The position numbers and the translations under genes are program-made. The notes below the pieces were generated by a model. It did no database searches. It was not told where the DNA came from and worked only from the letters and a program-made list of their open reading frames with translations. A stretch of DNA of 64,000 nt from Tribonema minus. Taxonomy: Eukaryota > Sar > Xanthophyceae > Tribonematales > Tribonemataceae. The DNA is taken from NCBI GenBank assembly GCA_017506865.1, contig JAFCMP010000016.1:372001-436000 (forward strand). Reading direction: 5' to 3'. This document shows positions 2,138-62,089 of the stretch, piece by piece (the first letter of the stretch is position 1; the number at the start of each line of letters is the position of its first letter).

Positions 2138-2320
2138 ATGGGGGGCACAGCCGCCATGTCTGATGACCCACGCAAGCAACAGTCACAGCAGCAGCCGCGG
2201 CGGCAGACGCCGGGCCGCGGCAGCAGCGGTGACGGCGGCAGCGCCAGCACTGCCAGCAGCAGCGCTCAGTATCCGCTCAACGACGGCAGCGACGTGGCCA
2301 CCTTCACGCCCGTCAACCAG
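2138..2320 (+). CDS. Armadillo-type gene, exon 1
   Basis: Starts with ATG 2138, with an in-frame ATG at 2156. It encodes a Gln/Ser/Gly-rich segment ending TFTPVNQ and stops at the donor CAG|GTGCGC. Phase 0 out. Confidence 0.7.
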
Positions 2321-5300
2321 GTGCGCAGTGATAGTTGAAGTCATGGAGAAGTAGAAGTTATTCACCGCTCTGTCGGCATGTGCAAGTGCACGCTTTGTGA
2401 TACGCCGGGTCTTGTAGGTGACGGCGGCTGTTCCGATGATGAAATTTTGATGAAGCAGGGCGATGAGCGTGGTGGTGTTTTGCGTCCACCCCTCTAAGTA
2501 TCTCCTTGCCTGTGTTTGATGCCCTAGCTTGCAAGTGGCATTGCTGTTGCGCCGGCGCACTGCTGCACCTGCACCTGCAGAAACATGTGTGCTGCATCAG
2601 TGTGTTGCATTATCTCGTGTGCACGGTGCTCTTGTGCACTCTGCTGAGCTCTTGTCGTACGTCTCAGCTTGGCAGCCGCCAATCACAGCGCTTGCTGTCT
2701 TGCACACGCTGTCACCGCTCCCTCCCTGCTGTTGATGAGCACATCACAACGGTTGTCACGCGCTCGTTGCCCTCCAATCTGTACAGGGGGGCAGCGATCA
2801 TGAGTGCCCATGTTGCTGAGCACTGCCGTCGCACACACGACCCCCTGCCTCACACACAACACCGCTGTTCCCCAGGGCACTTGCAGCCCATTTTGTTGGG
2901 CATTGCTGCTTCGCCTACCACGCATCCCGCGCGCCGCCCCCCCAGGGCAATTGCCCCGCGGCCCTTCTGTTTGCTGAGCACTCCTGTCTAAACACACACA
3001 CATGATACACATACACGTGAGCCTGTTTCCAGGTCACTGACTCCAGCAGCAGCCATCCACCCCCGCACGTTGCTGAGCCCCACACCACCTTGCTGAGCAC
3101 TGGTCCCCCCCCCCCCCCCCCTTCTCCAGGTCACTTACCTCAGCATTGGCCCACGGTCAGTGGGCCCTAGCCTGCTGTCATCCGCGCCTGGCGGCATAGC
3201 CTCACACTTCGCCCCGAGCTCTTCAGGGGGATGCCTGCCACAGGGACTCGCGGCGGCAGCAGCAGCGTGCATGCCGCCGCCCGCCATGTCGCGACAGACC
3301 AGCGCGCCCACTGCCGCCGCGCCCAGCGCTGCCGCGGCGGCGGCGTCGTCGCTGCGCGGCGGCAGCAGCAGCGCGCCGCCCGCTGTCATGAAAGGTATGC
3401 ATGTATGCTGTCACAGTAGGTAGGTAGGTAGGTATGCATGCGCGCACGGCGGCGGCGGCGGCGCTGCGCGGCGGCAGCAGTAGGCGGCAGCAGCAGTGCT
3501 CCGCCCGCTGTTATGAAAAGTATGCCAACATGAAAGATTTGCGTGCAGGCGGCGGTCGCGTGGTTAGCGAATTGTGCATCTTTGGCAAGTGTGTGTGCGG
3601 GCGGCGGCAGCAGCAGCGTTCAACTGCATGAAGTTGTGTACGCATGTGTGCGGCGGTGTGCGACTGCATCTCCAGTGCCTGTGTCTTACCTGAAAGGTGC
3701 ATGTGCTCGTGAAAAGTCTGCGTGTGCGTGCTGTGCTGTGCTGTGCCTTGCATGCTATGTGTGTGTTGATGGTAACAATGACCCACTGTGTTCACAAATG
3801 ATTTTGGAGTCTATGTTCATGCATGGTCGTGCGCAGGCTCCTTCAGTGAGTGGCCTATGCCGATTCTGTTGCGCATGCACTTGCTTTCCCTCTTCCTTCT
3901 CCGTTGATGAATGATCATGAATGGTCATGACCGTTCATGTGCACTTGCTCTCTCTCTCAACCCCTCCCTCTCTCCTTCATCAATGCCCATGATTGGTCAC
4001 AGTTGGTTTCTCAAGCGCCCACTCTCTTATCCCACCCCCTTCAGGCATATCCACTTCCACGCATATTCACTTCCACCCCCCTTTAGGTATAATCACGAGA
4101 AAGGACGGGGACACGAGCTCCGTCACTCATCCTCCCCCACTCTCCTCCGCTAATCCTCACTCACCCCCCCCCACACACACTCTCCTCTTTGAACTTTCAC
4201 GCTCGCAGGCGCAGCCCACCCGGCACCGGCCGGCCACCACCACCACATGCCCCTCTTCCACCACGCAGCAGTGGGCCGCAGCGCAGCGCCGACTGTGGGC
4301 CGCAGCGCAGGCGTCGCAGACATGTTCCCCATGCACAGCGCGTCGGCGGCGGCGTTCCTTGCGCCGCCGTCGCTGCACCACTTTGTGGCGCCGTCGGAGG
4401 CGTTTGGCCCCTCCATTCCCTCGTTCTACGGTGAGATACGCCGATACGCTGCGAGTCAAGTCAGTATTGCTTTGGTGATCCCAGGATTTATGCTCTGACC
4501 AATAGCGGTGTCGGAACTAATTCTCTGAAAGTGGTGGTGCTGCGAGTGGTAGTGGAGGGTCGCTGCACCGCTTCGTCGCGCCTTCGGAGGCGTTTGGCCT
4601 CTCCATTCCCTCGCTCTACAGTGAGATACGCCAAGAGGCAAGCCAGTATTGCTTTGGTGATGTCAAAACTTAGGCCCAGATCATTGGTGTTGGTGGAACC
4701 TCATGCCTCGAAATGGTGGTGCTGCAAGTGGTCGTGGAAGGTCGCTGCACCGTTGGAGGCGTTTGGCCCCTCCATTCCCTCGCTCTACGGTGAGATACGC
4801 CGCCACGACTAAAGCCAGTATCGCTCTGGTGATTACATTGTGTTGCTTAGTAATGGGTTGTGCACAAATGCTGCTCTGATGATTACATTGCGTTGCTTAG
4901 CAATGGGCTTGTGCACAATTGCCCCTAACCTGTGGACACAAGTGCCCCCCCCCCAAGTTCATGCGTTACTGGCCATATACTCTGAAGTAATACATTTCTT
5001 GCTTGTACAAGTGGTGCCTCATCCGCCTCCTCCTTATTCCTAGGTATGCAGATGTGTGACGCATGGCTTGACAACGGTCTTGTGTCATGACCATTAGGTT
5101 CTGCACTCCACATTGCCTCCAGATGCGCCCAGCTATGCATGCTTAGGGTTAGGGTTACGGTTAGGATTAGGGTTAGATGTCCTATGCACGTGGCGATTGG
5201 CAGTGCCTTGAGCTACGCCTAGCTGATGCATGCCCTTGACATATGCGCAGCCCTTCTGAGCACTTTGGTTCAGCCCTCACTCTTGGTGCCTGTGCTCGAG

Positions 5301-8300
5301 AAGTCAGCATTCAGTTTTACTTTACTCAAGTCCAAGTCCACTGCAAGCAAGCCACCCTCTTATGTGCGTTGACATCTCTCAAATTCATGTCAGGCACTAC
5401 TTAGACCTGCAAAACTGCCAACATTTACCCTGTTTCCAACCTCTCTGGTCGGCACTCCCCCTCCCCCCCCCCACACACACACCAAGTATAAACCGAGGTT
5501 GTTCACTGCATGACTGCACAGTTCAGCCCCCTGTCTCTTAGTTGCCGCTACAGAACGTGCTCAATCTATCAACCTGACCCATCGCATCTACCTATCGCAC
5601 GGTATGTAGATGCTGCTCCACACGTTACTGCACCTATCTCATCTATCTCGCCGACCCCCCTCGCACAGCAGCTGAGCTGGCCACATGACGCTCTTCTTTC
5701 ACTCAACCCTCTTGTGTTGCCAACCAAATCCTCAACAACAACCCACTGCACCAATCCCCCTCCCCCCCCCTCCCCTACTGCGCCTCCCCCCCCCCACCCC
5801 CCCCTTGAACTGCGCCCAACTGACCCCCCCCTCCCACCCCCACCTCACCCCACCCCCCGCCAGGTGGTCCCGTTGGCCGCCTCAGCTCCGGCGGCCACAT
5901 GATGCTCCCCTCGGAGTACGACCCCGCCGAACTACCAGCCTGGGCCACCGTGAAACTGCAACCCGACCCCACCCCAGCGCTCAGTAAGGACCCCCAGGAA
6001 CTTTCCGCGCAGGTTCTGCAGGAGATCCGCACTCGCTGCGCCGCGGCGACCCCCACCCCCCTCCCCAAGTTCCCCTTCACGCTGGAGCGCACGGCGTGCG
6101 CGCTGCCCCCAGGGGCGAGCGCTGTCACCGCCGCCACCGCCGTCGAAGCGGCGCTCACGCGCCTCGGCTGCGACTGCGCGCTGACGGCGGAAGGCGCCAA
6201 GTGGCGCGCTGCCGCGCACGCGTGCGGCGCGCGTGTGGAGTTCGTCGTGACGATTTTCGAGGGAGAGGGCACGGCGCTGACGGTGGAGTTCCAGTACCGC
6301 CTCGGCTGCAAGTTTGTCTTCTGGGACGTGTACCGCAGGGTCATGGAGGTGGTCAAGGCGGCATGCGGCGGCGGCGGCGTCGCGGGAGATGACGCGGCCG
6401 TCCTTGCCGCTGCGCAGGGGCTGAGCGCTCTCGGCAGCGAAGCAGGTGCGCAAATGCAACAGGTTGAAGTTTGCCACACACAAGTTGGTTTTTTTTTTGG
6501 TTCAGCAGAGCTCAATCGCGGCGGCGGCGGAGATGACGCAGCCGTGCTGGCCGCTGCGCAGGGGCTGAGCGCTCTCGGCAGCGAAGCAGGTGCGTGGATG
6601 ACACAAGTTGAAGTTTGCCACTCAAAAGTTGAAGTCTGCCATTGCAGCTCTGCTTTGCTGCCCCTGGGGGGGCTGAGCGCGCTCAGCAGCAACGCAGGTG
6701 TGCTGATGAAGTTATGGCTTGAAGTTTTGGCTGCAGGCAGGCTCTTGTGATTGGTTTAGATGAGCTCAGGCGCGGTGGCGCGGGATATGACAATGCCTGT
6801 GTCTGCTGCTGCTCGGGACCGAACGCGCTCGCCAGCGAAGCAGGTGCGCATTATGACACAAGTTGGAAGTTTGGTGATTCAGAGGGTCCAAGTGCGTGTG
6901 AGTTGGCTGGTGGTTTGCAGGAGGCGGGCAGTGGAGGGTCACAGTGGTATGTATGTATGTAGTGGTGCGGGCAACAGTATGCATATGAACAGGCTGTGCT
7001 GATCAGTGGGTCATCCTGCTTGACAGAAGCTTGGTTGGGTCTGCCAGGGCCAAGGGCCTGTGCAGCGAGACTGCTGTGGGTTAGGGTTAGGCTAACCCTA
7101 AGCTTATAAGGCAATTGAACGAGCCGGCTGGCTTTACCCTTCGTATGTAGTGTCACTGGAGTCGTTCGCTGCAAATTCTGCCAGGTGAGGCTCAGGTTTG
7201 CTTGCAAACAACCACTTTTACATCAGAATTATCATGAAGTGCGCAATTTGCTACCTGTTGTCAATCCGCAGCACAGGGCAGGTATCCTACAAATACCTCC
7301 CCCCTCTCCCCCCCCCTCTACCTTGAATACAGGTGGTTTTTCGGGCATCCGCAAGATGCCACCCCCCCTGGGCCCTCTCCCCAAGCCTGCCCCCGAGCAA
7401 GCGGGCATGGAGGATGAGAAGCAGGGCTCAGAGGCTGACGCTGAGGCGAAGGACATGACGTTTCTGGTCAACATGCTGCGCGCTAAAGAGCTGGAGGCAC
7501 GGTTGGAGGGCGCGCTCATCGCCGCAGAGATTAGGTGGGTCATTGAGTGTTTGAGTCAAATTAGTTGATGAGTCATTGAGTGTCAACATGCTCGCGCCCA
7601 GGAGCTGAAAGCGCGGTTGGAGGGCGCACTCAACGCCGCAGAGATCAGGTGAGTCATTGAGTCATTGAGTGTCAGCATGCTTCGTGCAGAGGGCGCACTC
7701 ATCGCCGCAGAGAGCCAATCAGTCGCTGAGTTGTCGGGGATACGGCAAGACCTTCTAGATTAGTTGTGTCGTGCTATGTTTTTGTTTTGCGGCGTCACCA
7801 GGCAGAGGCCAGCAATATTCAATATGCATAACTCTGATGCCCCCCCCCCCCCCCCCCCCCCCCGCGCACTCAAGCACAGATCCCACTCACTTCTCACAAG
7901 TGTTGGCTGCACTGTTCTAACCCCGCTGAAGTCACGCTCGCACTGCATCTCATCGGACGTCTAGGAGGCATTGCTGCAGCAGCAGAAGGCGGTGGTAGCA
8001 GCCCTGTCAGCGGCGCTCAACATTACGTCCTTCGCCCGCCCTAGCTTTGTCCCCCATGCTCCATACATGCACTCACTGCACCGTGTTGTCAAACACTGTT
8101 AACATCACGCCTGAACTGCAGCTCGTCGGACGTCCAGGAGGCATTGCTGCTGCAGAACGAGGCAGTAGTGGCGGCCCTGTCAGCAGCGCTCAACATTGTG
8201 CTGCGCGCCACCCCAAATGCTTCATACAGCTATGTCTCACTTACTGACTGTTCTAGCCCCGCTGATGCTTGCGTGCGCCTCAACTGCAGCTCGTCGGACG

Positions 8301-11180
8301 TCCAGGAGGCATCGCTGCTGCAGAACGAGGCAGTAGTGGCGGCCTTGTCAGCAGCGCTCAACATTGCGCTGAGCGCGCCCGCGGTGTGCCACGCGTCGTG
8401 CCGCACGCGCGTCGCTATCGCATCTGCCCTCTCCAAGCTGCTGCAGTACGGCGGTTCCGAGGTGGGTAACTGTTTGTAACTGCCGCAACTGTCCAATGCG
8501 TGGCCATCGCGTCCGCGCTGATTAAGCTGCTGCAGTATGGCCGTTCTGAGGTGTGTAAATGCTTGTATCCGCCGTAACTGCTTCATATGTCCGCCTCACA
8601 TCTGTCTGGCCGGTCAAATCTAAGTGTCTAACCACAGAAACTACCCACCCAAGGTATGCACGTACAAGAAATGCATGTGCAGCAATGACAATACTGTGCT
8701 GTTTGCTGTCGTGTTTGTGCATACGCAGATGTGCGGTCTGATAGACGCGTGCGCGTGTGAGGAGACAGCTGCTCAGCACCTGCCCGAACGGTTGCTTGAA
8801 GTTGCCTGCTTGGGGCTACAGTGCCAGCAAGGACACTCAGGTGAGGCCATTCGCCCAGTTGTGTTGCTCATCATTTTGCTCAAAAACTTCACGCTTGAAG
8901 TTGCTTGCTTGGGGCTAGTAATCAAGACGGCTTGAATCGCTGACCCAGTCGCATTGGTCAGTTGTGACTATAACTCAGAGCCGGTCTGATTGCAGTTTTT
9001 GGGGATATTGCTATTATGAGCTGAAGTTGCCAGTAAAGCCAGTGTTGGTGAGCCAGTTTGAGTCCTGATGTAGTTGCTTTGGTTTGTGCGCATACATAGC
9101 CCATACAGTGAGCTGCACTTGACTTCACCGTCAGGACTTTTGCAAACTCGATTGTTTCCCCATGATGCCTGCATGGTCCTGTTCAGACTATGGTGTTTAC
9201 CTTATTGGTGCAGCTCTTTGCCAGCATAACCTTGTGTGCGCGTCTTGTTAGCGATCTTTTAGTCCAATTGTCATACTCTATGGCCTGCTTTCACTGTCAT
9301 TGGTGACTGTGTGCGCTCTGCCCGCCTCTGCACCTGAAGTGTCAAGGTTCGTTCGTTGTTATACATGCAGTAACTTGTGTGATGCTGTGCCCTGTGCGGC
9401 AGCCAATGTGCTGCTGGTCTCTCGTGGCTGTTGTCAGCATTACGGTGTTTGTGCAGTATATGAATCTTACCACATTAGTTCCTCTGATGCTGCTCTTTTA
9501 CAACAGCTTCGGGGTCGGGACGTGCGCCGTCATGGTTTGAAGGCTATCAGCAGGTACAGTGCATGAATTCACTCAATGAATTAATACTCTCAATGAACGA
9601 CTGATCAGATGAAACAGAGTGTATGGGGTCAGGACGTGCGCAATCATGGTTTGAAGGCTATCAGCAGGTACAGGGACACGCCACTGCATGAATTCACTCA
9701 ATGAATGAATACACTCAGTGAATGACTGATCAGCTTTGCATGCTGTTTTGGATGTTTATGAACGCCACCTTGTGACTCAGGTAACAACTCATCATGATCA
9801 AAAGTGTCCTTTGTGTCGTAGTTGAAGTGTTTCTTGCCAACTTCAACGCAAGACTGTTCAGTGTGCTAGCGAACGCTGCGTCGACACTGTGGGTGCTGCA
9901 ATTTATCCTCGTGTCTTGAGAGCGGTGTTTGCTTGTCACGCCGTCTCTGCAGTTTTTGTTGGGTATATTGATCACAGCAATGAACTCCACTCTGCTTGTG
10001 GCTGTTATAACAGCTTTTCGACGTGCCTGGTGCGCACATACACAGTCATTCAGTGTGTGCAGTGTGACAATTCTGTGAGCGTCCACTTCAACAGGCCTAA
10101 AAGCACATGTCTCGATGACACATTGCTGCATCAAGTGCTTGCACTGTATCAGTCGCCCCAGCCACCAGTTGCTTGCGCTCAATTGTTAGATGCGCTGAAA
10201 AAACAGTGTTTTCGTCAACATGGTTTATTACTTTCGTCAATTCACATCGTTAATCCATTCAGTTGATTTGTATCATGTGGCATCGCTCATCTTGATCACA
10301 CCGGAGGGAACTGGTTGTGACAGCATCGCGAGCTTGAATCACTCACCCTAACGCTCATCCCCATCTGCATCGAAGTGCTATCATCCAGGGTTTTTCATCA
10401 ATTCACATCAGTGAAAGTAAATCATCCGATTCGAACGATGTGGCATTGCTCGTCTTCATCACGCAGGAGGCAACTGGCTGGGATGGCGTTCGCGAGCTTG
10501 AATTGCGCAGGCAGTGCGCGTGCGCAGTTGCCAGCCTCTGCAACAACCAGGAGCTCAGCCAGAAGCTCGCTTCAGTGATCACGGACCCCAGCAACGCCAA
10601 CATCATGCGGGTGAGATTTTGCATATATGCTGCAGTTATTATGCGCGCTGTCCTGCATCTATGGACATGGTGTTGCAACCAGCAGCAGCACAATGAAAAA
10701 CGCTACCATCACTGCACGTGATGTGAGCATCATGTCATGTGAGCAATACTCGACTGTTTTTCTTCTCAGGTGTTGGGTTAGGGTGAGGTTCTTGTGAGTT
10801 GCTGCTTCCAGGGGATCCATTGTTCGTGAAACCGCGCAAGTGTCAGTGGTACAAAAGCAAAGATACACTCACACTGTAATTCTGCTTGTGATGCTCGGAG
10901 GAATGCTGCAGTTGAGGACCCGATGACTTCGTGTTGCATACCAATTCATCACTTTCTTGCGCGCCATTTTACCATGTCAACTACTATCGCCGCATCATAT
11001 CCAGCCCTAACCCTAGCCCTCGCTGCACACAATCCCCTGCCGCAGTGCCTTGCGGAGTGCGACAAGATCAAGGACGCAAGGCTGCGCCAGTACTCCCTCG
11101 AGACGCGTGCGCTTCTCGCCAAGGCCGGTGCCCCCATTCTCACTCTGCCCGGCGCTTACGGCCCCGTCGTGGCCTGCTAA
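2138..11180 (+). CDS. Armadillo-like repeat protein with N-terminal disordered region and KA1-like alpha/beta domain (11-exon gene)
   Basis: Exons: 2138-2320, 3130-3394, 4209-4430, 5864-6444, 7151-7184, 7333-7534, 8290-8461, 8729-8840, 9403-9553, 10412-10610, 11046-11180. Intron phases agree at every junction and the exons sum to 2256 nt (751 residues plus TAA at 11178). Residues 1-290 are Ser/Ala/Gly/Pro-rich and probably disordered. About 290-385 is a compact alpha/beta domain ending in VEFQYRLGCKFVFWDVYRRV; its pattern (helix, strands, an R/L-G-c-x-F strand, final helix) loosely recalls KA1-type domains, which is inference only. From about 420 on, the Leu/Ala-rich helices (VVAALSAALNIAL, LSKLLQYGGSE, CAVASLCNN, LETRALLAKAG) look like armadillo/HEAT repeats, suggesting a scaffold. 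The ATG at 2156 is an alternative start. The 34-nt exon 5 is the weakest link; it is needed for phase. Introns hold edge copies of exons 2-4 and 6-10. No known family was recognised. Confidence 0.7.
3022..3517 (+). repeat. Edge copies around armadillo-gene exon 2
   Basis: Upstream, about 3022-3050 repeats the acceptor and start of exon 2 (TTTCCAGGTCACTGACTCCA against TTCTCCAGGTCACTTACCTC). Downstream, about 3449-3517 repeats the exon end including CCGCCCGCTGTTATGAAAAG, and a weaker copy lies at about 3601-3650. Confidence 0.65.
3130..3394 (+). CDS. Armadillo-type gene, exon 2
   Basis: The acceptor TTCTCCAG|GTCACT follows a long C run and is in phase with exon 1. The exon encodes VTYLSIGPRSVGPSLLSS and then an Ala/Pro/Ser-rich stretch ending APPAVMK at donor AAAG|GTATGC. 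A 5' edge copy lies at about 3022-3050, and 3' edge copies at about 3449-3517 and 3601-3650. Confidence 0.7.
4209..4430 (+). CDS. Armadillo-type gene, exon 3
   Basis: Acceptor CGCTCGCAG|GCGC, phase 1 in and out. Encodes a His4 run followed by MPLFHHAAVGRS and a C-terminal FVAPSEAFGPSIPSFYG at donor TACG|GTGAGA. Two decaying copies of the last 45-57 nt plus donor follow in the intron. Confidence 0.75.
4564..4800 (+). repeat. Two 3' edge copies of armadillo-gene exon 3
   Basis: Copies at 4564-4632 and 4745-4800 reproduce the last 45-57 nt of exon 3 and the donor GTGAGATACGCC. The first has CTACA before GTGAGA, the second has CTACG. The second has lost about 12 nt internally. Confidence 0.85.
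5140..5176 (+). repeat. Interstitial telomere-like tract (TTAGGG)n
   Basis: Several TTAGGG units with one-base variants (TTACGG, TTAGGA) in the intron between exons 3 and 4 of the armadillo-type gene. Confidence 0.8.
5864..6444 (+). CDS. Armadillo-type gene, exon 4 (KA1-like domain exon)
   Basis: The largest exon. A C-rich tract about 100 nt long (near 5750-5863) precedes acceptor CCAG|GTGG. It encodes MMLPSEYDPAELPAWATVKL and then the alpha/beta domain with LGCKFVFWDVYRRVMEVV, ending in VLAAAQGLSALGSEA at donor GCAG-GTGCGC (exon ends GCA at 6444). Three edge copies follow. Confidence 0.8.
6517..6843 (+). repeat. Three 3' edge copies of armadillo-gene exon 4
   Basis: Copies end at about 6591, 6697 and 6843. 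The first still reads GDDAAVLAAAQGLSALGSEA before GGTGCG; the second retains GGGGCTGAGCGCGCTCAGCA; the third is more diverged but ends GCCAGCGAAGCAGGTGCGCA. Confidence 0.85.
7079..7103. repeat. Head-to-head telomere-like junction in the armadillo-type gene
   Basis: GGGTTAGGGTTAGG is followed directly by CTAACCCTAAGC, an inverted arrangement like that at 38243. Confidence 0.8.
7151..7184 (+). CDS. Armadillo-type gene, tentative 34-nt exon 5
   Basis: Between TATGTAG|TGTCAC and CCAG|GTGAGG a 34-nt open stretch converts phase 0 to phase 1, exactly as needed between exons 4 and 6. The sequence alone cannot prove it is used. Confidence 0.4.
7333..7534 (+). CDS. Armadillo-type gene, exon 6
   Basis: Acceptor AATACAG|GTGG. 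Encodes GFSGIRKMPPPLGPLPKP, an acidic stretch, and the helix FLVNMLRAKELEARLEGAL, ending phase 2 at donor TTAG|GTGGGT. Two 3' edge copies follow (7587-7648 and 7672-7716). Confidence 0.7.
7587..7716 (+). repeat. Two 3' edge copies of armadillo-gene exon 6
   Basis: Both repeat GAGGGCGCACTC-ATCGCCGCAGAG or a one-base variant. The first keeps the donor ATCAG|GTGAGT; the second has lost it. Short TCATTGAGT words repeat between them. Confidence 0.8.
7941..8461 (+). repeat. Three tandem units (period about 175 bp) covering intron end plus exon 7 start
   Basis: Each unit carries a polypyrimidine or intron segment, an AG or CA acceptor position, and the start of exon 7 (CTCGTCGGACGTCCAGGAGG or variants). 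Exon starts fall near 7941, 8116 and 8290. Only the third runs on into the complete exon; the first has CA instead of the AG. Confidence 0.85.
8290..8461 (+). CDS. Armadillo-type gene, exon 7 (helical repeat)
   Basis: This is the third and best-preserved of three near-identical tandem units. It is in phase 2 with exon 6. Encodes SSDVQEASLLQNEAVVAALS and ends KLLQYGGSE at donor GAG|GTGGGT. A further 3' edge copy lies at 8496-8551. Confidence 0.75.
8729..8840 (+). CDS. Armadillo-type gene, exon 8
   Basis: Acceptor ACGCAG|ATGTGC, phase 0 in, phase 1 out at CTCAG|GTGAGG. Encodes MCGLIDACACEETAAQHL, then ERLLEVACLGLQC. A partial 3' edge copy lies at about 8889-8922. Confidence 0.65.
9403..9553 (+). 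CDS. Armadillo-type gene, exon 9
   Basis: Acceptor GCGGCAG|CC, phase 1 in; donor CAG|GTACAG, phase 2 out. Encodes ANVLLVSRGCCQHY through LRGRDVRRHGLKAIS. It could instead be two exons (9403-9455 and 9507-9553), since an internal GT and an internal AG also keep phase. Its last 45 nt recur at 9629-9672. Confidence 0.55.
9507..9735 (+). repeat. Tandem duplication of exon 9 end plus following intron
   Basis: The block from GGGGTCGGGACGTGCGCCGT through CTCAATGAACGACTGATCAG recurs about 120-125 bp downstream, with the donor CAG|GTACAG intact and the intronic GCATGAATTCACTCAATGAA word conserved. Confidence 0.8.
10238..10345 (+). repeat. 5' edge copy of armadillo-gene exon 10
   Basis: Repeats the region around the exon 10 acceptor and its first 60 or so nt (CAATTCACATC, ATGTGGCATCGCTC, AACTGG, CGCGAGCTTGAAT), with several indels. 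The real exon lies about 150 bp downstream. Confidence 0.7.
10412..10610 (+). CDS. Armadillo-type gene, exon 10
   Basis: Acceptor ACATCAG|TGAAAG, phase 2 in. Encodes SNDVALLVFITQEATGWDG, then LRRQCACAVASLCNNQELSQ and ends NANIMR at donor CGG|GTGAGA. A 5' edge copy lies at about 10238-10345. Confidence 0.75.
11046..11180 (+). CDS. Armadillo-type gene, last exon
   Basis: Acceptor TGCCGCAG|TGCC lies just after telomere-like CCCTAACCCTAGCCCT. Encodes CLAECDKIKDARLRQYSLET, then LLAKAGAPILTLPGAYGPVVAC and TAA. Phase 0 matches exon 10. Confidence 0.75.
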   Translation, partial: CLAECDKIKDARLRQYSLETRALLAKAGAPILTLPGAYGPVVAC

Positions 11181-14000: not shown

Positions 14001-14032
<32 letters not shown>

Positions 14033-14712: not shown

Positions 14713-14891
14713 TCACCCATAGGGAGACACGAACGCTGCCAGAAACGCCTCTGCAAACTCATCGGCAGTTATGCTTGGCGTGCTGGGCGGCGCATGGTGG
14801 TTCCACATGTCAAAGCTCAGTCCTGGCGTCTTGAGGCTGTTAATAAGGCGCCGCACCATCTCTTTGGGCAGGGTACTCGAGCCATCGTCCC
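14713..14891 (-). CDS. Giant gene last exon: degenerate EF-hand and stop
   Basis: The acceptor GTGTGCAG|GGGA is in phase 1. Encodes DDGSSTLPKEMVRRLINSLK, a linker, then SITADEFAEAFLAAFVSPYG and TGA. The acidic loop lacks a full ligand set, so calcium binding is doubtful. A weak GT near 14716 could extend the gene, but no following exon was found. Confidence 0.65.
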
Positions 14892-17667: not shown

Positions 17668-17703
<36 letters not shown>

Positions 17704-21687: not shown

Positions 21688-21718
<31 letters not shown>

Positions 21719-54700: not shown

Positions 54701-55030
54701 CGCCTCCCCATTGAACAGCAGCAGCGCGCAGTCTAGGTCGCACACCAGGTTGTTGCTGTTGTCCTGCGCCGCAGTGCCCGTGTGCTGCGTCCAGTTGCAG
54801 CCCAGCATGAGGCACGGCGATCCCAGCAGGCGTATGGACTCGCCGGGAGTGAGAGACAGGCAGGGCTCGTCGGCGGTGGCGAGGCGCTTGCGCTGCTGCT
54901 GGTGCTGAGGGGGGGGGTCTTTCTTGTCATCGGAGTGCTGTTTGGGTAGCTTTACCTTTTTGCGCTTGTGCTCGTACGAGTTGCTCCTGCTGGGGCTGGA
55001 GGATCTGGCTGCACCGTTACTGTTCGACAT
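14713..55030 (-). CDS. Giant TerD / EF-hand / WD40 / EF-hand protein (29-exon gene, FAP337/WDR49-WDR64-like core)
   Basis: Reading the minus strand from ATG 55030, 29 exons join with consistent phase at all 28 introns, sum to 7719 nt (2572 residues) and end at TGA 14713-14715. Domains, by residue: about 60-310 TerD-like (split by an acidic, Gly/Pro/His loop); EF-hand loop near 388 (DLNGNESVDWQE); about 485-1375 WD40 blades enough for two propellers (SDNRLYRWDTED, MDGRVCVWAV, ASGWARVWDLGG, HFHVWTATTG, TAKICLWHF, SGRVLRWELSEV); 1375-2320 mostly low complexity; EF-hand loops near 2372 (DVNRSGSLDAGE) and 2400 (DRDMSGTLECSE); and a degenerate EF-like motif near 2514. EF-hand plus WD40 proteins of this type (human WDR49/WDR64, algal FAP337) are axonemal, so a calcium-responsive flagellar role is inferred. 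A TerD fusion is not a standard form of that family as far as I know. It could still be two genes or mis-joined; the unbroken phase chain argues otherwise. Confidence 0.7.
15864..15997 (-). CDS. Giant gene exon 28
   Basis: Encodes RTPSLSDSGASTLAAAAAAV, then DRPQVEDLRKLFKLYTAFA. The last helix leads into exon 29 and looks like the entering helix of an EF-hand. Acceptor CGTGCAG|GCGA, donor GCTG|GTAAGT, phase 1. Confidence 0.65.
16261..17030. repeat. Intronic tandem duplication, period about 385 bp
   Basis: AGCAATGTCACCTTTACCAA at 16261 recurs at 16646. GGCACAGTCGTCATAAT, AACCCTAACCCTC-type tracts and CATGCTACAC-TGAGTTGAGC recur at the same offset. Both units are within the intron between exons 27 and 28. 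Confidence 0.85.
17672..17935. repeat. GT microsatellites with 3' edge copies of giant-gene exon 27
   Basis: Pure or nearly pure (GT)n runs at about 17672-17700, 17816-17858 and 17908-17935, between copies of GCGTGCACTGTACCTGTGTT (exon 27 end plus donor) near 17710-17740 and 17870-17900. Confidence 0.8.
17966..18060 (-). CDS. Giant gene exon 27
   Basis: A 95-nt exon encoding ESEAAAEKRRAQPLAAAMAN and GMTMSATIYQH. It is the piece needed to turn phase 0 (exon 26) into phase 2 (exon 28). Acceptor CTCGTGCAG|GAGA, donor ACACAG|GTGAAG. Both edges have copies in the neighbouring introns. Confidence 0.6.
18190..18640 (-). repeat. 5' edge copies of giant-gene exon 27
   Basis: The nearest copy, about 18211-18260, repeats CTCGCCGCTTCTCGGCAGCA and the acceptor CTGCACGAGCACATGG. 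More diverged copies lie near 18396-18440 and 18596-18630, with a remnant near 18900-18960. Confidence 0.8.
19204..19403 (-). repeat. Three 3' edge copies of giant-gene exon 26
   Basis: Copies at about 19353-19403, 19263-19304 and 19204-19225. The first two keep TTGACTCACCAGGGC and the CVIEYSDAL-coding end. Spacing is about 90 bp, then shorter. Confidence 0.9.
19448..19571 (-). CDS. Giant gene exon 26: EF-hand
   Basis: Joined to exon 25 it gives MFLSLDRDMSGTLECSELIP with the full loop DRDMSGTLECSE, then VVFTRATQKQLHVIRCVIEY and SDAL. Acceptor CTGTAG|GTCC, donor CCCTG|GTGAGT, phase 0. Three edge copies follow. Confidence 0.85.
19922..20412 (-). repeat. 3' edge copies of giant-gene exon 25
   Basis: Copies at about 20366-20412 and 20208-20270, a short one near 20290-20315, and a weak one near 19922-19975. 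They keep CACTTACAGGAACATGTTGC or CACTCACAGGAACATGTTGC (donor plus exon end). Confidence 0.85.
20528..20763 (-). CDS. Giant gene exon 25: EF-hand
   Basis: Encodes a basic linker, then EFRAAFNAVDVNRSGSLDAG and EWQRFLARYDSSVSDLNARN. The loop DVNRSGSLDAGE has all EF ligand positions. Acceptor TGCTGCAG|GCAC, donor TTCCT|GTAAGT, phase 2. Confidence 0.85.
20897..20960 (-). repeat. 5' edge copy of giant-gene exon 25
   Basis: Repeats the exon start and acceptor (GACTGCGGCTGTGCCTGCAG) plus the intron words AGAGGGTACGTAGGTATGG and AGGGTTAGGG, about 180 bp upstream in the sense direction. Confidence 0.8.
21656..22049 (-). CDS. Giant gene exon 24: Gly-Pro-His and poly-Ala region
   Basis: After acceptor ACCCGCAG|GGAG it encodes EAEGGGKRRTYPTRK, then repeating G/A-P-H triplets (TGPHGAHPGAHSGPHGPHMA), a Gly8 run, a long Ala run and GRPATADKQ. 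Donor GCAG|GTGACT, phase 0. The Ala run is mostly GCG/GCC codons and may be unstable. Confidence 0.65.
22645..23175 (-). repeat. Four 3' edge copies of giant-gene exon 23
   Basis: Copies near 23121-23175, 22987-23043, 22745-22805 and 22645-22695. The word GAGGCCTCC(G/A)TGTG on the plus strand marks each, next to a GCACTG word and a TAGGGTTAGGG-like tract. Confidence 0.85.
23238..23472 (-). CDS. Giant gene exon 23
   Basis: Encodes SFKRGVTSRLLRSTSASNFN, FKTLGDIDDLDVQKASAAEA, then an Ala/Arg-rich helix ending VALLAFHTEASIR. Acceptor GAGCAG|GGGC, donor CGCAG|GTGCCA, phase 2 out. Four edge copies follow. Confidence 0.75.
24567..25051 (-). repeat. Four 3' edge copies of giant-gene exon 22
   Basis: Copies at about 24980-25051, 24863-24935, 24700-24765 and 24567-24640. 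All keep CACCTTCTGG or ACCTTCCGG (donor plus exon end) and TCATC-ATCAGCGACTGAGCC. One frame reads DDGSAQANESPPEG in the nearest. Confidence 0.9.
25128..25346 (-). CDS. Giant gene exon 22
   Basis: Encodes TAPSLTGFSTASYGIQPYPY, LPMGEYSDAETCCLQLTEAE, LLLRASRRVKTAQSLMDDGS and AQPNEAPPE. Acceptor CGTGCAG|GCAC, donor GAAG|GTGCTA, phase 1 in and out. Four edge copies follow. Confidence 0.75.
25929..27100 (-). CDS. Giant gene exon 21: long low-complexity linker
   Basis: The longest exon (1172 nt), Ala/Ser/Gly/Thr-rich. It starts TNDEEQQQRSTPLSPL and ends PSVISTIG. Near its end a Ser/Arg-rich unit recurs three times (SSQRSPSKRSTAAGG, SSQRSPSGRSTAASG, SSQVSPVRSVAAKG). Acceptor CACTCAG|TACT, donor ATTG|GTGAGT. 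A linker role is inferred from composition only. Confidence 0.7.
27460..28180 (-). repeat. Array of 3' edge copies of giant-gene exon 20
   Basis: Copies near 28118-28180, 28012-28065 and 27610-27690, and weaker ones near 27690-27770 and 27460-27540. They share CTGCTGCAAC(G)CACCT, CGCGCCGGCAG and CTGTCGGCTGG words on the plus strand. Confidence 0.8.
28236..28553 (-). CDS. Giant gene exon 20
   Basis: Encodes GGNNTADHIAVQWADSGLFC, a Pro/Thr/Val linker, then GCFGWEEVQRLRRLCLDRER and VRAYCRRDVL. No family recognised. Acceptor TTGTGCAG|CGGC, donor CTGAG|GTGTGT, phase 2 at both ends. At least four edge copies follow. Confidence 0.65.
29478..29572 (-). repeat. 3' edge copy of giant-gene exon 19
   Basis: About 94 nt repeat the exon end and still read LAADSASSLVCSPPRGGGEG in one frame. 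The donor position has decayed. The palindromic ACTTCAACTTGAAGT lies twice between copy and exon. Confidence 0.85.
29664..30152 (-). CDS. Giant gene exon 19: post-propeller region
   Basis: Encodes GNPPPEWRFPLSRIVVHAQH, a basic helix region, a long Gly/Ser tract and a C-terminal RRLLAADSASSLVCSPPRGS. Acceptor TTCCCAG|GGGC follows a long C tract in the sense. Donor GAAAC|GTAAGT, phase 2. A 94-nt edge copy sits at 29478-29572. Confidence 0.7.
30907..30980 (-). CDS. Giant gene exon 18
   Basis: A 74-nt exon after ATGTATAG|ATCT. Encodes IWSAAGDLLGDILLPNATDE and HIDQ, the usual last WD strand and exit in EF-hand WD40 proteins. Donor CAGAG|GTGAGA, phase 2. Confidence 0.65.
32103..32168 (-). CDS. Giant gene exon 17
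   Basis: A 66-nt exon encoding VVGVGASAPRCWFTLGDDGV and QQ, the middle strands of a WD repeat that ends in exon 18. Acceptor TTGTCAG|GTGG, donor ACAG|GTAGGC, phase 0. Confidence 0.7.
32965..33070 (-). CDS. Giant gene exon 16
   Basis: Encodes IVEGSKSCGELVTSSPPPPI, then GHSMEWQAHIGMVQ; the W-x-AH-x-G-x-V element starts a new WD repeat. Acceptor TCCCAG|GATT, donor TGCAG|GTGCGT. Confidence 0.75.
33628..34175 (-). CDS. Giant gene exon 15: two WD40 blades with loop
   Basis: Encodes GIGGQQPATGLAILGARSII, VVGDTAKICLWHFNSATHAV, a disordered insert, then YIAAGTESGRVLRWELSEVL and LATLVKEG. Acceptor ACCGCAG|GGCA, donor GGCAG|GTATGT, phase 2. Confidence 0.85.
34687..34815 (-). CDS. Giant gene exon 14: WD40 blade
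   Basis: Encodes TDAAGVAFAAYSHRLGLIAA, then TAFVTVYGFEHLQPLATISQ. Acceptor CCGCAG|ACCG, donor CACAG|GTGGGT, phase 0. Confidence 0.8.
35088..35152. repeat. Interstitial telomere-like tract (CCCTAA)n
   Basis: The longest perfect interstitial run in the window, five to six CCCTAA units followed by degenerate units, inside the intron between exons 13 and 14. Confidence 0.9.
35499..35592 (-). repeat. Well-preserved 3' edge copy of giant-gene exon 13
   Basis: About 92 nt duplicate the second half of exon 13, still reading LSFDAHGTIAVTLETQCVFR, with an intact donor AGG-TATGTA about 130 bp from the real one. Confidence 0.9.
35632..35793 (-). CDS. Giant gene exon 13: WD40 blade
   Basis: Encodes TLDMCRPHKGVAVTALVHCP, then TVLSFDAHGTIAVTLETQCV and FRPIRVRRRPK. 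Acceptor GCACAG|ACGC, donor CAAG|GTATGT, phase 0. It has the richest set of 5' edge copies in the window. Confidence 0.8.
35885..36790 (-). repeat. Array of about seven 5' edge copies of giant-gene exon 13
   Basis: Copies near 35885-35925, 36080-36120, 36275-36320, 36376-36420, 36475-36505, 36605-36660 and 36760-36790 share GGCACATGTCC(A)GCGTCTGTG-like exon starts on the plus strand, usually with CAGTGCTCAGCA on the exon-interior side. Confidence 0.85.
37428..37663 (-). repeat. 3' edge copies of giant-gene exon 12
   Basis: Copies at about 37428-37472 and 37627-37663 keep the exon end in the form CTGATGTA-CTGAGCAGCGCCA-CTCGCCCCC on the plus strand with small changes. A short third remnant lies near 37541-37560. 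Confidence 0.8.
37766..37864 (-). CDS. Giant gene exon 12: WD40 blade part
   Basis: A 99-nt exon, phase 0 at both ends. Encodes MVTSACFALPHERRLLVATE, then GGELALLSYITGQ. Acceptor CTGCTGCAG|ATGG, donor ACAG|GTCTGC. Copies of both edges lie nearby. Confidence 0.75.
38243..38280. repeat. Head-to-head telomere-like junction
   Basis: TTAGGGTTAGGG meets CTAACCCTAACCC at a GC centre, forming an inverted telomere-like palindrome within the intron between exons 11 and 12. Confidence 0.85.
39381..39638 (-). CDS. Giant gene exon 11: WD40 blade
   Basis: Encodes VPCYAAYNAASGHFVCALRG, then HFHVWTATTGSHIRRFTLVL, followed by a Gly/Glu run that probably forms a loop. Acceptor AACGCAG|GTCC, donor CTGCG|GTGAGT. 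Confidence 0.85.
39745..39915 (-). repeat. Two 5' edge copies of giant-gene exon 11
   Basis: Copies at about 39745-39805 and 39858-39915 repeat the acceptor (with a GGTGAAAAA-type or degraded context) and the VPCYAAYNAASGHF-coding start. Confidence 0.85.
40243..40400 (-). repeat. Two 3' edge copies of giant-gene exon 10
   Basis: Copies at about 40243-40285 and 40362-40400 keep ACCTGGTAC-GGCGCCGCGTG on the plus strand, that is, the donor plus the RRTRRPYQ-coding end. Confidence 0.85.
40513..40987 (-). CDS. Giant gene exon 10: two WD40 blades
   Basis: Encodes AHRLGVLTLSYARGLLLSGA, FDWVAAAWDVGRL, QGHTAAVVAARHM, then PVRALTLDASGWARVWDLGG and RRTRRPYQ. The acceptor is a CAG repeat (GTCTGCAGCAGCAGC), so small NAGNAG shifts are possible. 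Donor CCAG|GTATGC, phase 0. Confidence 0.8.
41285..41584 (-). CDS. Giant gene exon 9: WD40 blade
   Basis: Encodes WDTEDLSGGARAVDLADAAS, then VATCAMDGRVCVWAVPAWTL and a Ser-rich tail. Acceptor TCTCAG|GTGG, donor CCGAG|GTGAGG, phase 2 at both ends. Confidence 0.8.
41690..41925 (-). repeat. Two 5' edge copies of giant-gene exon 9
   Basis: Copies at about 41690-41790 and 41855-41925 repeat the acceptor and WDTEDL-coding start. The nearer one still reads GGARAVDLADAAFWHTDT. The intron part TTGAAGTTTGGGG or TTCGGGG is repeated as well. Confidence 0.85.
42676..42890 (-). repeat. Three 3' edge copies of giant-gene exon 8 with GC donor
   Basis: Copies at about 42676-42714, 42749-42786 and 42850-42888. 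In the sense strand each keeps GTGACA and an exon end followed by GCAAG or GCAAA, so the non-canonical GC donor is preserved. Confidence 0.85.
42924..43049 (-). CDS. Giant gene exon 8: WD40 blade (GC donor)
   Basis: Encodes RGRAAGFTATAKAVHQLLHR, then EGALMSIGSDNRLYR; spliced to exon 9 it gives SDNRLYRWDTED, a strong WD signature. The donor is CTACAG|GCAAGC, a GC donor supported by phase, by the WD signature across the junction and by three copies that keep GC. Confidence 0.8.
43721..44180 (-). repeat. Four 3' edge copies of giant-gene exon 7
   Basis: Copies near 44134-44180, 44030-44070, 43931-43980 and 43721-43770. Divergence grows with distance: GGTCGTGTGC is intact in the first two, changed in the third and fourth. 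Confidence 0.85.
44249..44374 (-). CDS. Giant gene exon 7: WD40 blade
   Basis: Encodes DELFADDMPVAVLTAAYVPS, then DVLAVACSDHSVNFMREAHD; the AVACSDHSVNF strand is typical of WD repeats. Acceptor ACTGCAG|GGAT, donor GACCG|GTGAGA, phase 2 in and out. Confidence 0.8.
44880..45070. repeat. Intronic tandem duplication, period about 104 bp
   Basis: ACAGTAAGTCTTTCACTACTTG and its downstream ATTTACAGGCACTG-ATG and GCATAGTCTACAT words occur twice in direct orientation, in the intron between exons 6 and 7. Confidence 0.8.
45126..45646 (-). repeat. Four 3' edge copies of giant-gene exon 6
   Basis: Copies start at 45588, 45433, 45261 and 45126 (spacing 193, 155, 172 and 135 bp counting from the exon at 45781). 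All keep ACCTGAATG-ATGCATGTG, that is, the exon end plus GGTA donor. The farthest copy is the shortest and most diverged. Confidence 0.9.
45781..45983 (-). CDS. Giant gene exon 6: first WD40 blade
   Basis: A G run on the plus strand (a C tract in the sense) precedes acceptor TTCCAG|AGCG. Encodes a basic segment, then PQTGHVFVGTGGAPVLVALD and GRRRHMHTFR, phase 2 at CATTCAG|GTATTG. Four degenerate edge copies follow. Confidence 0.8.
46975..47395. repeat. Cluster of telomere-like tracts in both orientations
   Basis: CCCTAACCCTAACC near 46985-47020, TAGGGTTAGGG near 47174-47210, and TTAGGGTTAGA and CTAACCCTAACCCTAACC near 47335-47390. The surrounding sequence (GTATGAACCC, CAGCCCAGGCT, CATACCTTC) is also duplicated. 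Confidence 0.75.
47651..47850 (-). repeat. Two 3' edge copies of giant-gene exon 5
   Basis: Copies end at 47771 and 47651, spaced about 120 bp. Each keeps GCGCGCCACTGCGCGGCAAT and the donor as GTGACTCACCT on the plus strand. They read QWRAGLDGNEPE or near-identical in one frame. Confidence 0.9.
47892..48320 (-). CDS. Giant gene exon 5: first EF-hand
   Basis: The acceptor ATTGTGCAG|CGCTCC gives RSSARSGLGRADFISVLFKQ, then LEELFDQIDLNGNESVDWQE with a canonical 12-residue EF loop (D1, N3, N5, S7, D9, E12), an Ala/Ser-rich linker and LDIAAQWRAGLDGNEPE. This resembles the N-terminus of EF-hand WD40 proteins. Donor GAG|GTGAGT. Confidence 0.85.
48460..48830 (-). repeat. Two 5' edge copies of giant-gene exon 5
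   Basis: Blocks near 48460-48560 and 48690-48830 repeat the exon 5 start and its upstream intron (GGCGGTACGGC, TTGAAGAGTACACTGAT, CCGGAGCGCGCGCTGGAGCG, CTGCACA). The reading frame is broken by indels. Confidence 0.85.
49289..49363 (-). CDS. Giant gene exon 4
   Basis: A 75-nt exon between GTGCAG|ATGCTG and AAG|GTGACT, phase 0 at both ends. Encodes MLPNVAALCSALSSAALPEM and EAHFK. The upstream intron repeats the acceptor neighbourhood about four times with a period of roughly 90-110 bp. Confidence 0.7.
49360..49680 (-). repeat. Array around the acceptor of giant-gene exon 4
   Basis: CAGCATCTGCA or a one-base variant, followed by a GCACAAG word and then a GATGATG-rich stretch, recurs near 49360, 49451, 49541 and 49650. 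Only the first is next to the coding exon. Confidence 0.75.
50204..50387 (-). CDS. Giant gene exon 3: TerD C-terminal strand pair (GC donor)
   Basis: The acceptor GCTGCAG|GGGC is in phase 2. Encodes GTDMSVDGANALAVLKIERR, then DPWSVMAVLREL, which matches the final NALAVL...W-x-VMAV pair of TerD folds. The only donor that keeps phase is CAG|GCGAGT, a GC donor, and its downstream copy also carries GC at that place. Confidence 0.75.
51560..51675. repeat. Degenerate CCCTAA-like tract
   Basis: About 110 bp of CCCTAA units drifting to CCCTAC, CCGTAC and CCCTGA, in the intron between exons 2 and 3. Confidence 0.8.
51893..52236 (-). repeat. Four 3' edge copies of giant-gene exon 2 interleaved with telomere-like tracts
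   Basis: On the plus strand the word CACCTGCGCACATGCGTCGG (donor plus exon end) recurs near 51893-51921, 51993-52033, 52112-52142 and 52204-52236. The copies alternate with CCCTAACCCTAA-type tracts, forming a composite unit of roughly 100 bp. Confidence 0.8.
52323..52600 (-). CDS. Giant gene exon 2: TerD continuation with acidic loop
   Basis: The acceptor TTGTTGCAG|ATCGTG joins exon 1 in phase 0, giving MPHR then IVTAILVVRAATHDFARKNV, the expected TerD strand after the calcium-binding segment. An insert with six consecutive Asp and Pro/Gly runs follows. Phase 2 out at GCGCAG|GTGGGT. Confidence 0.8.
52726..52870 (-). repeat. 5' edge copies of giant-gene exon 2
   Basis: The acceptor side of exon 2 is repeated at about 52726-52776, where the plus strand reads GCGCACCACCAGTATGGCGG followed by a CTGCAAC acceptor as in the exon, and more weakly at about 52839-52870. 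Confidence 0.75.
53300..53376. repeat. TTAGGG tracts in a short duplicated context
   Basis: GGGTTAGGGTTAGGG occurs twice, each followed by a GGTGCCACCAGTGGCC or GCCACCAGTGGCC word, in the intron between exons 1 and 2 of the giant gene. Confidence 0.8.
54413..54470 (-). repeat. 3' edge copy of giant-gene exon 1
   Basis: Repeats the last 50 or so nt of exon 1, including the TerD VDLAAMP codons in altered form, and the donor GGTGAG, about 130 bp away. The sequence between exon and copy is itself duplicated (CTCTGCATTGTCATTC occurs twice). Confidence 0.8.
54545..55030 (-). CDS. Giant gene exon 1: start and TerD N-terminal half
   Basis: Begins MSNSNGAARSSSPSRSNSYE, then a Lys/Gln-rich linker, then a TerD core: LLGSPCLMLGCNW, CDLDCALLLFNGEARVVAVV, GIEQDDDAERMFVDLAAMP. 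In TerD family members the DLD and (D)D-E-x-hydrophobic-V-DL positions bind calcium. Donor AGG|GTGAGT, phase 0. An edge copy lies at 54413-54470. Confidence 0.85.
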
Positions 55031-57323: not shown

Positions 57324-57433
57324 CCAGAGGAAGAGCTTTGTACCACTGGTCTCGACTCCGTAGTGGATTCAGGCTGGCAGCCATGAGGCTATTGAGGGAG
57401 CAGCAGGAAACGGCGCGCCTGCAGCTAGAACAG
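57324..57433 (+). CDS. RING gene, coiled-segment exon
   Basis: Acceptor CTGTGCAG|CCAG, phase 1 in; donor ACAG|GTGATT, phase 0 out. Rich in Arg, Leu, Gln and Glu, with a likely helical REQQETARLQLEQ end. It is the least certain of the three exons. Confidence 0.5.
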
Positions 57434-60400: not shown

Positions 60401-60509
60401 TGTGTGCCCCGTCCTCTCCGCGCAGTGCATGTGCCGTCAGTGCGGCGCCTTGCTGTCCGTCTGCCCGCTGTGCATGCGGCCCATTGTAAAGCTGGTGATG
60501 CTCGGCTAG
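57324..60509 (+). CDS. RING-finger protein, last three exons (5' end unresolved)
   Basis: Exons 57324-57433, 59122-59229 and 60426-60509 join in phase. They encode RGRALYHWSRLRSGFRLAAM, a coiled segment RLLREQQETARLQLEQ, a basic linker, and a complete C3HC4-type RING: TCKVCWDRPNDTVCLDCGHQ joined to CMCRQCGALLSVCPLCMRPI, ending VKLVMLG and TAG. Spacing C-x2-C, C-G-H, C-x-C-x2-C, C-P-x-C matches RING-HC fingers of E3 ubiquitin ligases, where the domain recruits the E2 enzyme; a C-terminal RING is common in that class. The second exon could instead start at 59137. The substrate and the N-terminal domains are unknown. The last intron contains copies of the DCGHQ-coding edge. Confidence 0.7.
59122..59229 (+). 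CDS. RING gene, first half of RING finger
   Basis: Acceptor CACCGCAG|CTGC (or CTCAG|AGCC at 59137). Encodes SRVRRDHLDRG, then TCKVCWDRPNDTVCLDCGHQ. Donor CCAG|GTGAGC, phase 0. Confidence 0.75.
59299..59657 (+). repeat. Three 3' edge copies of the RING exon
   Basis: GACTGCGGCCATCAGGTGAGC (shown to 20 nt elsewhere) near 59312-59334, CACTGCGGCCACGAGGTCAC near 59542-59562, and GACTGCGGTCACCAGGCGAG near 59643-59662. The first keeps the GT donor; the last has GC. Intron words ACGTATGCTCATA and CATGTATGCTCATA also recur. Confidence 0.85.
59900..60305. repeat. Telomere-like tracts in the RING-gene intron
   Basis: Tracts near 59905-59955 (duplicated GTCAGTTAGGGTTAGG), 60195-60215 and 60280-60302, all in TTAGGG orientation within the last intron of the RING gene. 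Confidence 0.8.
60426..60509 (+). CDS. RING gene, second half of RING finger and stop
   Basis: Acceptor TCCGCGCAG|TGCATG, phase 0. Encodes CMCRQCGALLSVCPLCMRPI and VKLVMLG, then TAG at 60507-60509. Confidence 0.8.
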   Translation, partial: CMCRQCGALLSVCPLCMRPIVKLVMLG

Positions 60510-62089
60510 GACAGGATCCCTCCCAGGAACTCTCCTCAAGACCCGGTGCACCCTGAGCAGACAGCTGTGCAGTTCGCTTCGCAGCCCCCATTCCACAGCT
60601 GATGGTAGTGGGCTGGGACCATTCCGAGTTTTTGAGCATGCTCGGTGACCCCAACCAGACAGGCGTGCAGCGAACTGCATGCGGTCGGTTGTGGAGCTGG
60701 TGATGATGCTGAGGCAAGAAATTTCTCAGGAAACTTCCCAAATGCCCTGACCGCATACCTCTTCATGAGCACAAGGTCTGCATCCAGGCGCTTCGGCTCC
60801 TGTGCGAGGCACGCTGATGTGCCGCTTCACGACAGAGTCACGGCGCTCATGATGCTGGACTGGGATTGTGCCTCTAGAGGCAAAGCAGCGCCACAACATG
60901 CATACATACTGCAGGGCCATGCTCTCCGAGTGGCAGGGCGCGATGAAGGATCATGCGTAGCAGAAGAGCCAGGTCGCTGGCCTGCAACGTGGGCACACCT
61001 GCGCCCTTCAAGTTGCTTCCCGAGTACGTGTTGTTGCGGAAATGGCTTGTGCAAATGACTTGCAAGTTCAGCAGTTGTATGTATGGCAAGCAGCCGCTAG
61101 TACTTTTGACGGTTTGATTTTGAGCCAGGTTGCCAAGAGACCACTGTGACTGTGTTCGGGCTTTGTAATGAGACAAACTGACATTCAGTTATATTTCACA
61201 ATCAAATTCAAATTGAATGCATTCCACTGCCTGTGATTTCACACTGCCTTGTCCCTTGTAGCTTTTGCAATGCATATGCCCCTTCTTTAAATATCACAGG
61301 CTGTGGTGGCTGCAGTCAAGGTTATGAGCTGCTTTCGTGCACGTCATTTGTACGTGTGTCGTTTTCCATGTATGTTTTCTGGTCGAACGCCCCGGCACCT
61401 TTCACTCACCTTGGACTTCAGCAGGTGTGTGCACATTGGAGAACGCTGCTGTCGAGCACAACATGGCAGTTGAAGTAGTAGAGGTTTTTTGTCTGCATGA
61501 AAGCTTGACTACTATAGTATTATCTATACACAAGAGCAAGTTGTGAGGGAACAGCGTGCTACAGTAATGTCCGCTGCAGCTGGGCTACAGTGAGGTCTAC
61601 TCATTGGCAAGCCGTGAACTCATGCACGCTTTCAGATCAATCAAAATTGCTGTTTGCTGCTATAGTTGCGAAGCAAGCATTCAGTCGGCCGCGTGTGAAA
61701 CAGTGCACAGCGTTGTTGTGGTTGGCAGTGAAGAGCAAGCTGTGCTGGCTTTAGCTTGGCAGCATCATCAAGACATTGCCAACACATGTGTGAGCTTGCC
61801 AGTGATCCACCAGCACCGCCATTGCAGAGGGCGTGCAGGCGCCACAGGGGCGTAACTTTTGCCTGTTGCGCCTTGGGCGGAAAAGCCCGCCTCTGTCGCT
61901 GAGAACTACGCACACACATTGTTAACAGGCGAACGAAGACGGAGCTGGCACGCAAGGCAAGGCATACCATACGCTGCCAAGAGCGTCAACACGACAACGC
62001 TTTGCGAACTCACAGGCTAGGTGAGCACGTGTGGGACAAGTGAGTGACTCTCCACTTTTTTTGGTGAGTGTGTTTCTGTTCACGTGCGC
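60510..62089. other. Intergenic stretch
   Basis: Apart from the copy at 60668-60720, nothing convincing. Several open frames of 60-140 codons overlap on both strands but show no domain or splice logic. Confidence 0.4.
60668..60720 (+). repeat. Copy of the RING gene 3' end beyond its stop codon
   Basis: CTGCATGCGG...GAGCTGGTGATGATGCT resembles the last coding nt of the final exon (GTGCATGCGGCCCATTG, AAGCTGGTGATGCTCGG) about 190 bp downstream of the stop. This is a copy outside any intron. Confidence 0.6.

Follow-up and report, generated by a model that had tools for sequence, protein, structure and literature searches.

The introns of a 64,000-nucleotide stretch of the Tribonema minus genome (Xanthophyceae; assembly GCA_017506865.1) are populated by degenerate tandem copies of the edges of their neighboring exons. 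We analyzed this stretch, hereafter the window, which spans positions 372,001 to 436,000 of contig JAFCMP010000016.1 (C16:372001-436000) in a genome of 158.18 Mb and 554 contigs; window positions are counted from its first letter. Exons were predicted with a small gene-structure hidden Markov model (HMM) that learned from chaperonin and HSP70 exons rather than from repeats. The model was checked on four of its training genes only, where it recovered the training exons and called some of the intronic copies, which we term ghosts, as short exons. We removed predicted window exons that were shorter than 45 bp, scored below 5, or resembled a better neighbor. An Rfam search of the window gave 0 matches.

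The first gene lies on the plus strand at 2156-11180, with eight predicted exons kept (2156-2320 to 11046-11180) and some probably missed; the parts of it that were tried had no Pfam match. Its ghosts flank both kinds of splice edge. At donor edges, the 3' end and donor of exon 4311-4430 recur at offsets of 190 and 359 bp (4311-4833), those of exon 6013-6445 three times downstream at offsets of 144, 254 and 398 bp (6374-6873), those of exon 7333-7534 once at 7582-7670 (cluster 7467-7731), and those of exon 8290-8461 once at 8498-8580 (cluster 8409-8580). At acceptor edges, the 5' start of exon 8290-8461 has two upstream copies (7911-8376) and that of exon 10467-10610 has one at 10232-10339 (cluster 10232-10503).

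The same layout recurs on the minus strand, where predicted coding sequence runs from about 18.6 to 61.4 kb (18581-61436). Two exons at about 19.4-20.8 kb give an EF-hand match above the Pfam cut-off, and matches below it fall at 41287-41583 (WD40) and 47892-48320 (EF-hand). Donor-edge copies accompany exon 20528-20763 (offsets 159, 318 and 599 bp; 19890-20585), exon 25128-25346 (four copies; 24505-25194), exon 47892-48320 (two tandem copies with a 122 bp unit; 47596-47962) and exon 54545-54904 (one copy; 54409-54586). Acceptor-edge copies accompany exon 35632-35793 (four copies counted within a longer cluster; 35755-36864), exon 41285-41584 (one copy at 41705-41812, 88.9% identical; 41494-41940) and exon 50297-50387 (one copy 265 bp away, 90.9% identical; 50297-50684). 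A preliminary description of this DNA counted three independent genes on both strands; we resolve one plus-strand gene and one or more minus-strand genes.

Repeats in the window are local, direct and far beyond chance. Comparing the window with itself by BLAST yielded 96 direct repeat pairs, 93 of them spaced less than 1 kb apart, and 4 inverted pairs, all within telomere-like tracts. Each of 30 local dinucleotide shuffles yielded 0 pairs, which rejects a chance origin. Shuffled introns were the control on which the preliminary description had staked its case, and shuffling the window, a near equivalent, leaves that case unrefuted. Twenty other 10-kb stretches, taken at round coordinates on named contigs and so not a strictly random sample, held 126 direct pairs less than 1 kb apart and 6 inverted pairs. 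Local duplication is thus widespread across the genome, yet denser in the window. Predicted intergenic DNA of the window also contains local duplications, at 16260-17036 and 18022-18287, with 18022-18102 showing 92.6% identity to its copy. Strong over-representation marks TTGAAGTT/AACTTCAA in the window and the other 20 stretches taken together (142 observed against 4.9 expected), and TTAGGG-like tracts and poly-C runs are over-represented too.

Repeat clusters in the window concentrate on splice edges. Thirty of 47 clusters lie at predicted splice edges, against 10.0±2.3 under a shifted null (maximum 18 in 500), confirming the original observation that exon-edge copies occupy the adjoining introns. 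Clusters touch 31 of 56 predicted edges (null mean 13.3, maximum 26), comprising 18 of 28 donors and 13 of 28 acceptors. Edge copies are therefore common, but they mark about half of the edges rather than belonging to most exons, as had been claimed. The bias survives masking of the exons: of 37 clusters found in the masked window, we used the 31 whose enclosing intron is shorter than 6 kb and dropped 6, and 9, 14 and 22 of the 31 lie within 20, 60 and 120 bp of an edge, where 1.4, 3.9 and 7.8 are expected. On visual inspection, three window clusters (9511-9733, 42604-42967 and 45067-45836) resemble the edges of exons that the model missed, and they stayed in the count as misses. The last, on the minus strand, is an array resembling decayed copies of an exon end and donor with no adjoining predicted exon; it was scored as intronic, that is, against the edge tally.

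Because the window was picked for its pattern, chaperonin genes provide the fairer estimate. We avoided circularity by collecting them through a PF00118 search, which gave nine loci (L029-L037) from ten gene groups, with C544 left out and C51 cut short; ghost-like matches were already visible in three loci at the search stage, before the loci were taken. Before the borders were set, we manually excluded four HMM matches as ghosts (two in L037, one each in L031 and L032). Exon borders set by profile distance, phase and GT-AG define 30 introns totaling 22.6 kb, 26 of them with zero length discrepancy. A low-scoring L034 intron was dropped from the coverage, masking, HMM-training, simulation, exonic-length, and intron-birth and whole-exon counts, and retained in the codon-position, deletion, splice-dinucleotide, identity-profile, mismatch and copy-number counts. 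Chaperonin repeats again tend to touch exon edges, more weakly than in the window; after exon masking, 8 of 20 clusters are no more than 20 bp from an edge, where 1.9 would be expected (p 2e-4). With provisionally predicted exons, clusters on edges are also raised in the 20 other stretches, at 30 of 63 against 17.5±3.2 (maximum 29).

The repeated units are short, partly nested tandem duplications that span the exon border. We pooled 65 clusters from window and chaperonin introns, omitting window introns longer than 4.5 kb and clusters not contained within one intron and its two exons, which leaves 40 window clusters rather than 47. The outer end falls inside an exon in 51 of the 65, in 49 by at least 8 bp (window 31/40, chaperonin 18/25), and in only 5 does it fall within the intron's first 100 bp. 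A duplicated segment has a median of 53 bp of exon and, with spacing taken as unit length, 86 bp of intron. Apart from one that measures 8 bp, there are 48 exonic parts, with a peak at 40-60 bp (18, where 8.7 are expected) and a depletion above 95 bp (4, where the expected share is 27%). Window and chaperonin genes together hold 110 copies over 54 edges, with 1 to 8 per edge. The nearest copy lies 79-323 bp away at 52 of these edges and 710 and 721 bp away at the other two, a broader range than the usual spacing of 90-190 bp first proposed. In one chaperonin exon the layout is that of two successive tandem duplications, with a unit of 186 and then 104. The coding exon itself stays single, as originally stated: whole-exon tandem duplication is rejected, since a copy covering at least 85% of the exon occurs in 0 of 77 exons.

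Once inside the intron, ghost copies decay at about the neutral rate. Exon and copy differ at 9.5-12.0% of positions, whereas duplicated intron segments differ from each other at 17-18%, which is what one would see if decay touched only the copy on the exon side but both partners on the intron side. In 10-bp bins, exon-side identity is 86-100% for donor ghosts and 89-96% for acceptor ghosts, and the intron side falls to 48-83%. Fourteen of 15 deletions in chaperonin ghosts are not multiples of three. Coding constraint as the main cause of ghost similarity is rejected by these frameshifting deletions, the identity profile and the one-sided mismatch pattern.

This asymmetry could by itself enrich edge copies, which stay recognizable longer because selection holds the exon side of the pair. 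We quantified the effect by simulating uniform tandem duplication forward in time, with decay on one or both sides of a pair. In window introns it gave 17-18% spanning clusters, against the 31 of 40 observed (p 4e-16); an 8-fold edge boost raised this to 67% and a 20-fold boost to 79%. In chaperonin introns it gave 41-52%, against 18 of 25 observed (p 0.002-0.03, depending on the assumed null), a modest excess of about 2- to 4-fold in odds. Relative to intron-only duplications, those straddling an edge thus exceed what uniform duplication yields under equal decay and detection, strongly so in the window and modestly in the chaperonin genes.

We consider it probable that recurrent short tandem duplications across splice edges lengthen introns, mainly at their ends, and that the copies then decay in the intron. 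In this scenario, a duplication of about 53 bp of exon and 86 bp of intron would straddle the edge. The outermost splice site would keep making the old protein, and the spare edge copy would become intronic and presumably be spliced out. Such an event should be harmless because the outer site in use leaves the spare copy in the intron, whereas an equivalent event within an exon would mostly disrupt the protein, a contrast that would account for tolerance at edges. The intronic copy would decay at about the neutral rate, and repeated events at one edge would build arrays of up to eight decaying copies. Tolerance explains why edge copies survive, not why intron-only duplications are scarce. To account for that scarcity, duplications must either originate in exons or at exon borders or be favored there in some way. 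A start in exons or at their borders seems most likely, perhaps through staggered breaks or repair synthesis, with selection clearing duplications that fall wholly inside exons; the edge preference would then combine a mutational bias with the loss of exonic events. Junctions read by eye (two in L033 and one in L036, examples rather than a count) have about 0-3 bases in common, a figure compatible with end joining of staggered breaks.

Several observations weigh against this reading. Chaperonin genes favor edges far less than does the window, which was selected for the pattern; judged strictly, repeats there cover just 7 of 30 donors and 7 of 30 acceptors, or 14 of 60 edges. Predicted exons in the 20 other stretches show no excess when counted by edge, with 32 of 204 hit against a null mean of 26.7. 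Some chaperonin genes have few repeats or none (L034 none, L035 one pair, L029 two), and of the HSP70 genes matched in the genome, the two examined showed no local repeats when these were sought. These two form a recent paralogue pair, inverted at C522:954450-957950 and 981500-984950 and 84-90% identical, and offered no fresh duplication to bear out the ongoing growth first proposed. Stronger selection in highly expressed genes could account for the repeat-poor HSP70 paralogues, L034 and L035. The divergence gradient along arrays is slight: a rise with distance, as first described, is seen in 73 of 107 non-tied within-edge pairs (p 2e-4, although the pairs are interdependent), but a comparison of extremes finds greater divergence in the farthest copy than in the nearest at only 17 of 29 edges (p 0.25). 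A junction motif, sought among six 7-mers at 57 duplications, was not found beyond a weak poly-C/poly-G excess. Mismatches by codon position stand at 7.4, 5.4 and 15.8%, a ratio of about 2.5 where about 1.7-2 is reckoned for neutral ghosts; synonymous change in the exon explains much of the third-position excess, which is still somewhat larger than reckoned. Gap openings in ghosts run at about 0.4-0.6 of half the intron-intron rate. The third-position excess and the low gap openings together indicate that some ghosts may have spent a brief time under constraint.

The alternative that survives best, though we judge it unlikely, is that short tandem duplication is uniform everywhere, with exonic events purged, edge and intronic ones tolerated, and edge copies seen more often through one-sided selection. 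One-sided decay does differ from two-sided decay, and with that difference built in, uniform duplication alone takes simulated chaperonin introns to 41-52% spanning clusters. Predicted intergenic DNA has repeat clusters as well: the window has 4 in 12.1 kb and the other stretches 7 in 53.5 kb. This account is already strained by the simulated shortfall in window introns, by the persistence of the edge bias once exon masking takes away the detection advantage, and by the scarcity of clusters starting within an intron's first 100 bp.

A process specific to splice edges is rather improbable as a substitute for duplications that begin in exons or at their borders. Here, the splice border, and not exons in general, would be duplicated through breaks, nicks or RNA-templated synthesis linked to splicing or to splicing-associated chromatin. 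It fits the involvement of both donor and acceptor edges and the 40-60 bp peak and long-end depletion of the exonic parts, but selection against long exonic ghosts would give an identical size peak. In its favor, copies are found at 0 of 7 chaperonin 3' gene ends, although these flanks reach just 193-311 bp past the end of the profile match with the stop codon not located; against it, 3 of 17 predicted start or stop edges in the other stretches are touched. The missing junction motif also counts against it.

It is highly unlikely that the copies are functional, serving as alternative or decoy splice sites under selection. Of 30 aligned ghosts, 27 keep their splice dinucleotides intact where local identity predicts 20.7, and mismatches are rich in third positions; however, the identity profile keeps splice sites no better than the adjoining exonic bases, nearly all ghost deletions shift the frame, and mismatch levels match one-sided neutral decay. 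That alleles or read errors were joined in tandem during assembly is scarcely credible, as exonic parts differ from the exon by 0-29%, with indels, in successive units, and copies occur in independent genes on contigs of 0.38-1.97 Mb.

Single duplications of a splice border are already known; what is unusual here is their frequency and edge bias. The preliminary description knew of no comparable system, which overstates the case. In the potato RdRp gene, one tandem duplication crossing an intron-exon border created a new intron (PMC4974935). Both systems involve a tandem duplication across the boundary, part of which turns intronic, as in our 49 of 65 clusters and in the successive units at one locus. 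The potato report describes a single event and a new intron, whereas we find serial edge copies and detect no intron birth. Novel Drosophila introns arising via tandem duplication (PMC2891723) are a more distant parallel. The AGGT tandem-duplication model of intron birth (Rogers 1989, Hellsten 2011; per the introduction of PMC4974935) likewise places tandemly duplicated exonic sequence in an intron. We reject this type of birth: of 57 introns, 0 have a donor edge resembling their own acceptor edge, a comparison that would miss very old births. Internal gene duplication is commonly observed, according to the same introduction, which cites Gao and Lynch 2009. The likeness there is of short duplications inside genes across exons and introns. 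Such duplications are reportedly not described in that work as concentrated at edges or as leaving serial edge copies in introns.

Introners and introner-like elements form dispersed families (PMC3443670, PMC12730881) and resemble our system in that intron content grows by sequence copying. Two ghost-bearing stretches of 1.5-1.6 kb, two of many, match only themselves apart from two hits of 43-58 bp in simple-repeat sequence of one stretch, which rejects a dispersed family for them. The original interpretation as local splice-border duplication, distinct from introners and from whole-exon duplication, thus holds, for introners on the strength of these two stretches. Direct repeats near splice sites, a more distant case, have been read as insertion footprints (Rogers and Bendich 2025, PMC11782384); they too lie at intron-exon borders but measure 4-30 bp, unlike our serial intronic copies, whose nearest spacing is mostly 79-323 bp. 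The abstract and section 3.4 of a report on an intron-rich chlorarachniophyte genome describe longer introns and do not mention an edge-copy pattern (PMC12730881). Among the matches listed in our literature search, titles and abstract openings gave no description of pervasive exon-edge duplication; subscription literature was thinly covered, and absence from print is not established.

The genome searches also returned matches outside the genes discussed here. Light-harvesting proteins account for 92 exon-level matches. Two short pieces of the plastid gene for the Rubisco large subunit sit in the nuclear genome, at C334:714136-714324, which is closest to red-type enzymes in the PDB, and at C112:516888-517037; they probably reflect DNA transfer from plastid to nucleus. 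Separately, contigs C312, C455 and C544 carry equal-scoring matches, which suggests either redundancy among contigs or a recent duplication.

Exon-edge duplication looks like an under-described way of lengthening introns. To our knowledge, intron lengthening by routes other than transposon insertion is poorly documented. A bolder possibility, which we advance tentatively and with considerable doubt, is that splice borders are duplication hotspots. Some process linked to splicing, to exon chromatin or to repair primed from exons would there copy about 50 exonic and 90 intronic bases in tandem over and over, and exon-edge duplication would drive most intron growth in this algal lineage. If edge-anchored tandem duplication is a main route, introns hold a readable record of their own growth, with the exon edge as reference and the ghost as a roughly neutral copy. 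The rate of intron growth, neutral decay and tolerance of decoy splice sites would then be measurable within one genome, and genes full of intact decoy donors and acceptors would offer a natural test of how the spliceosome chooses its sites.

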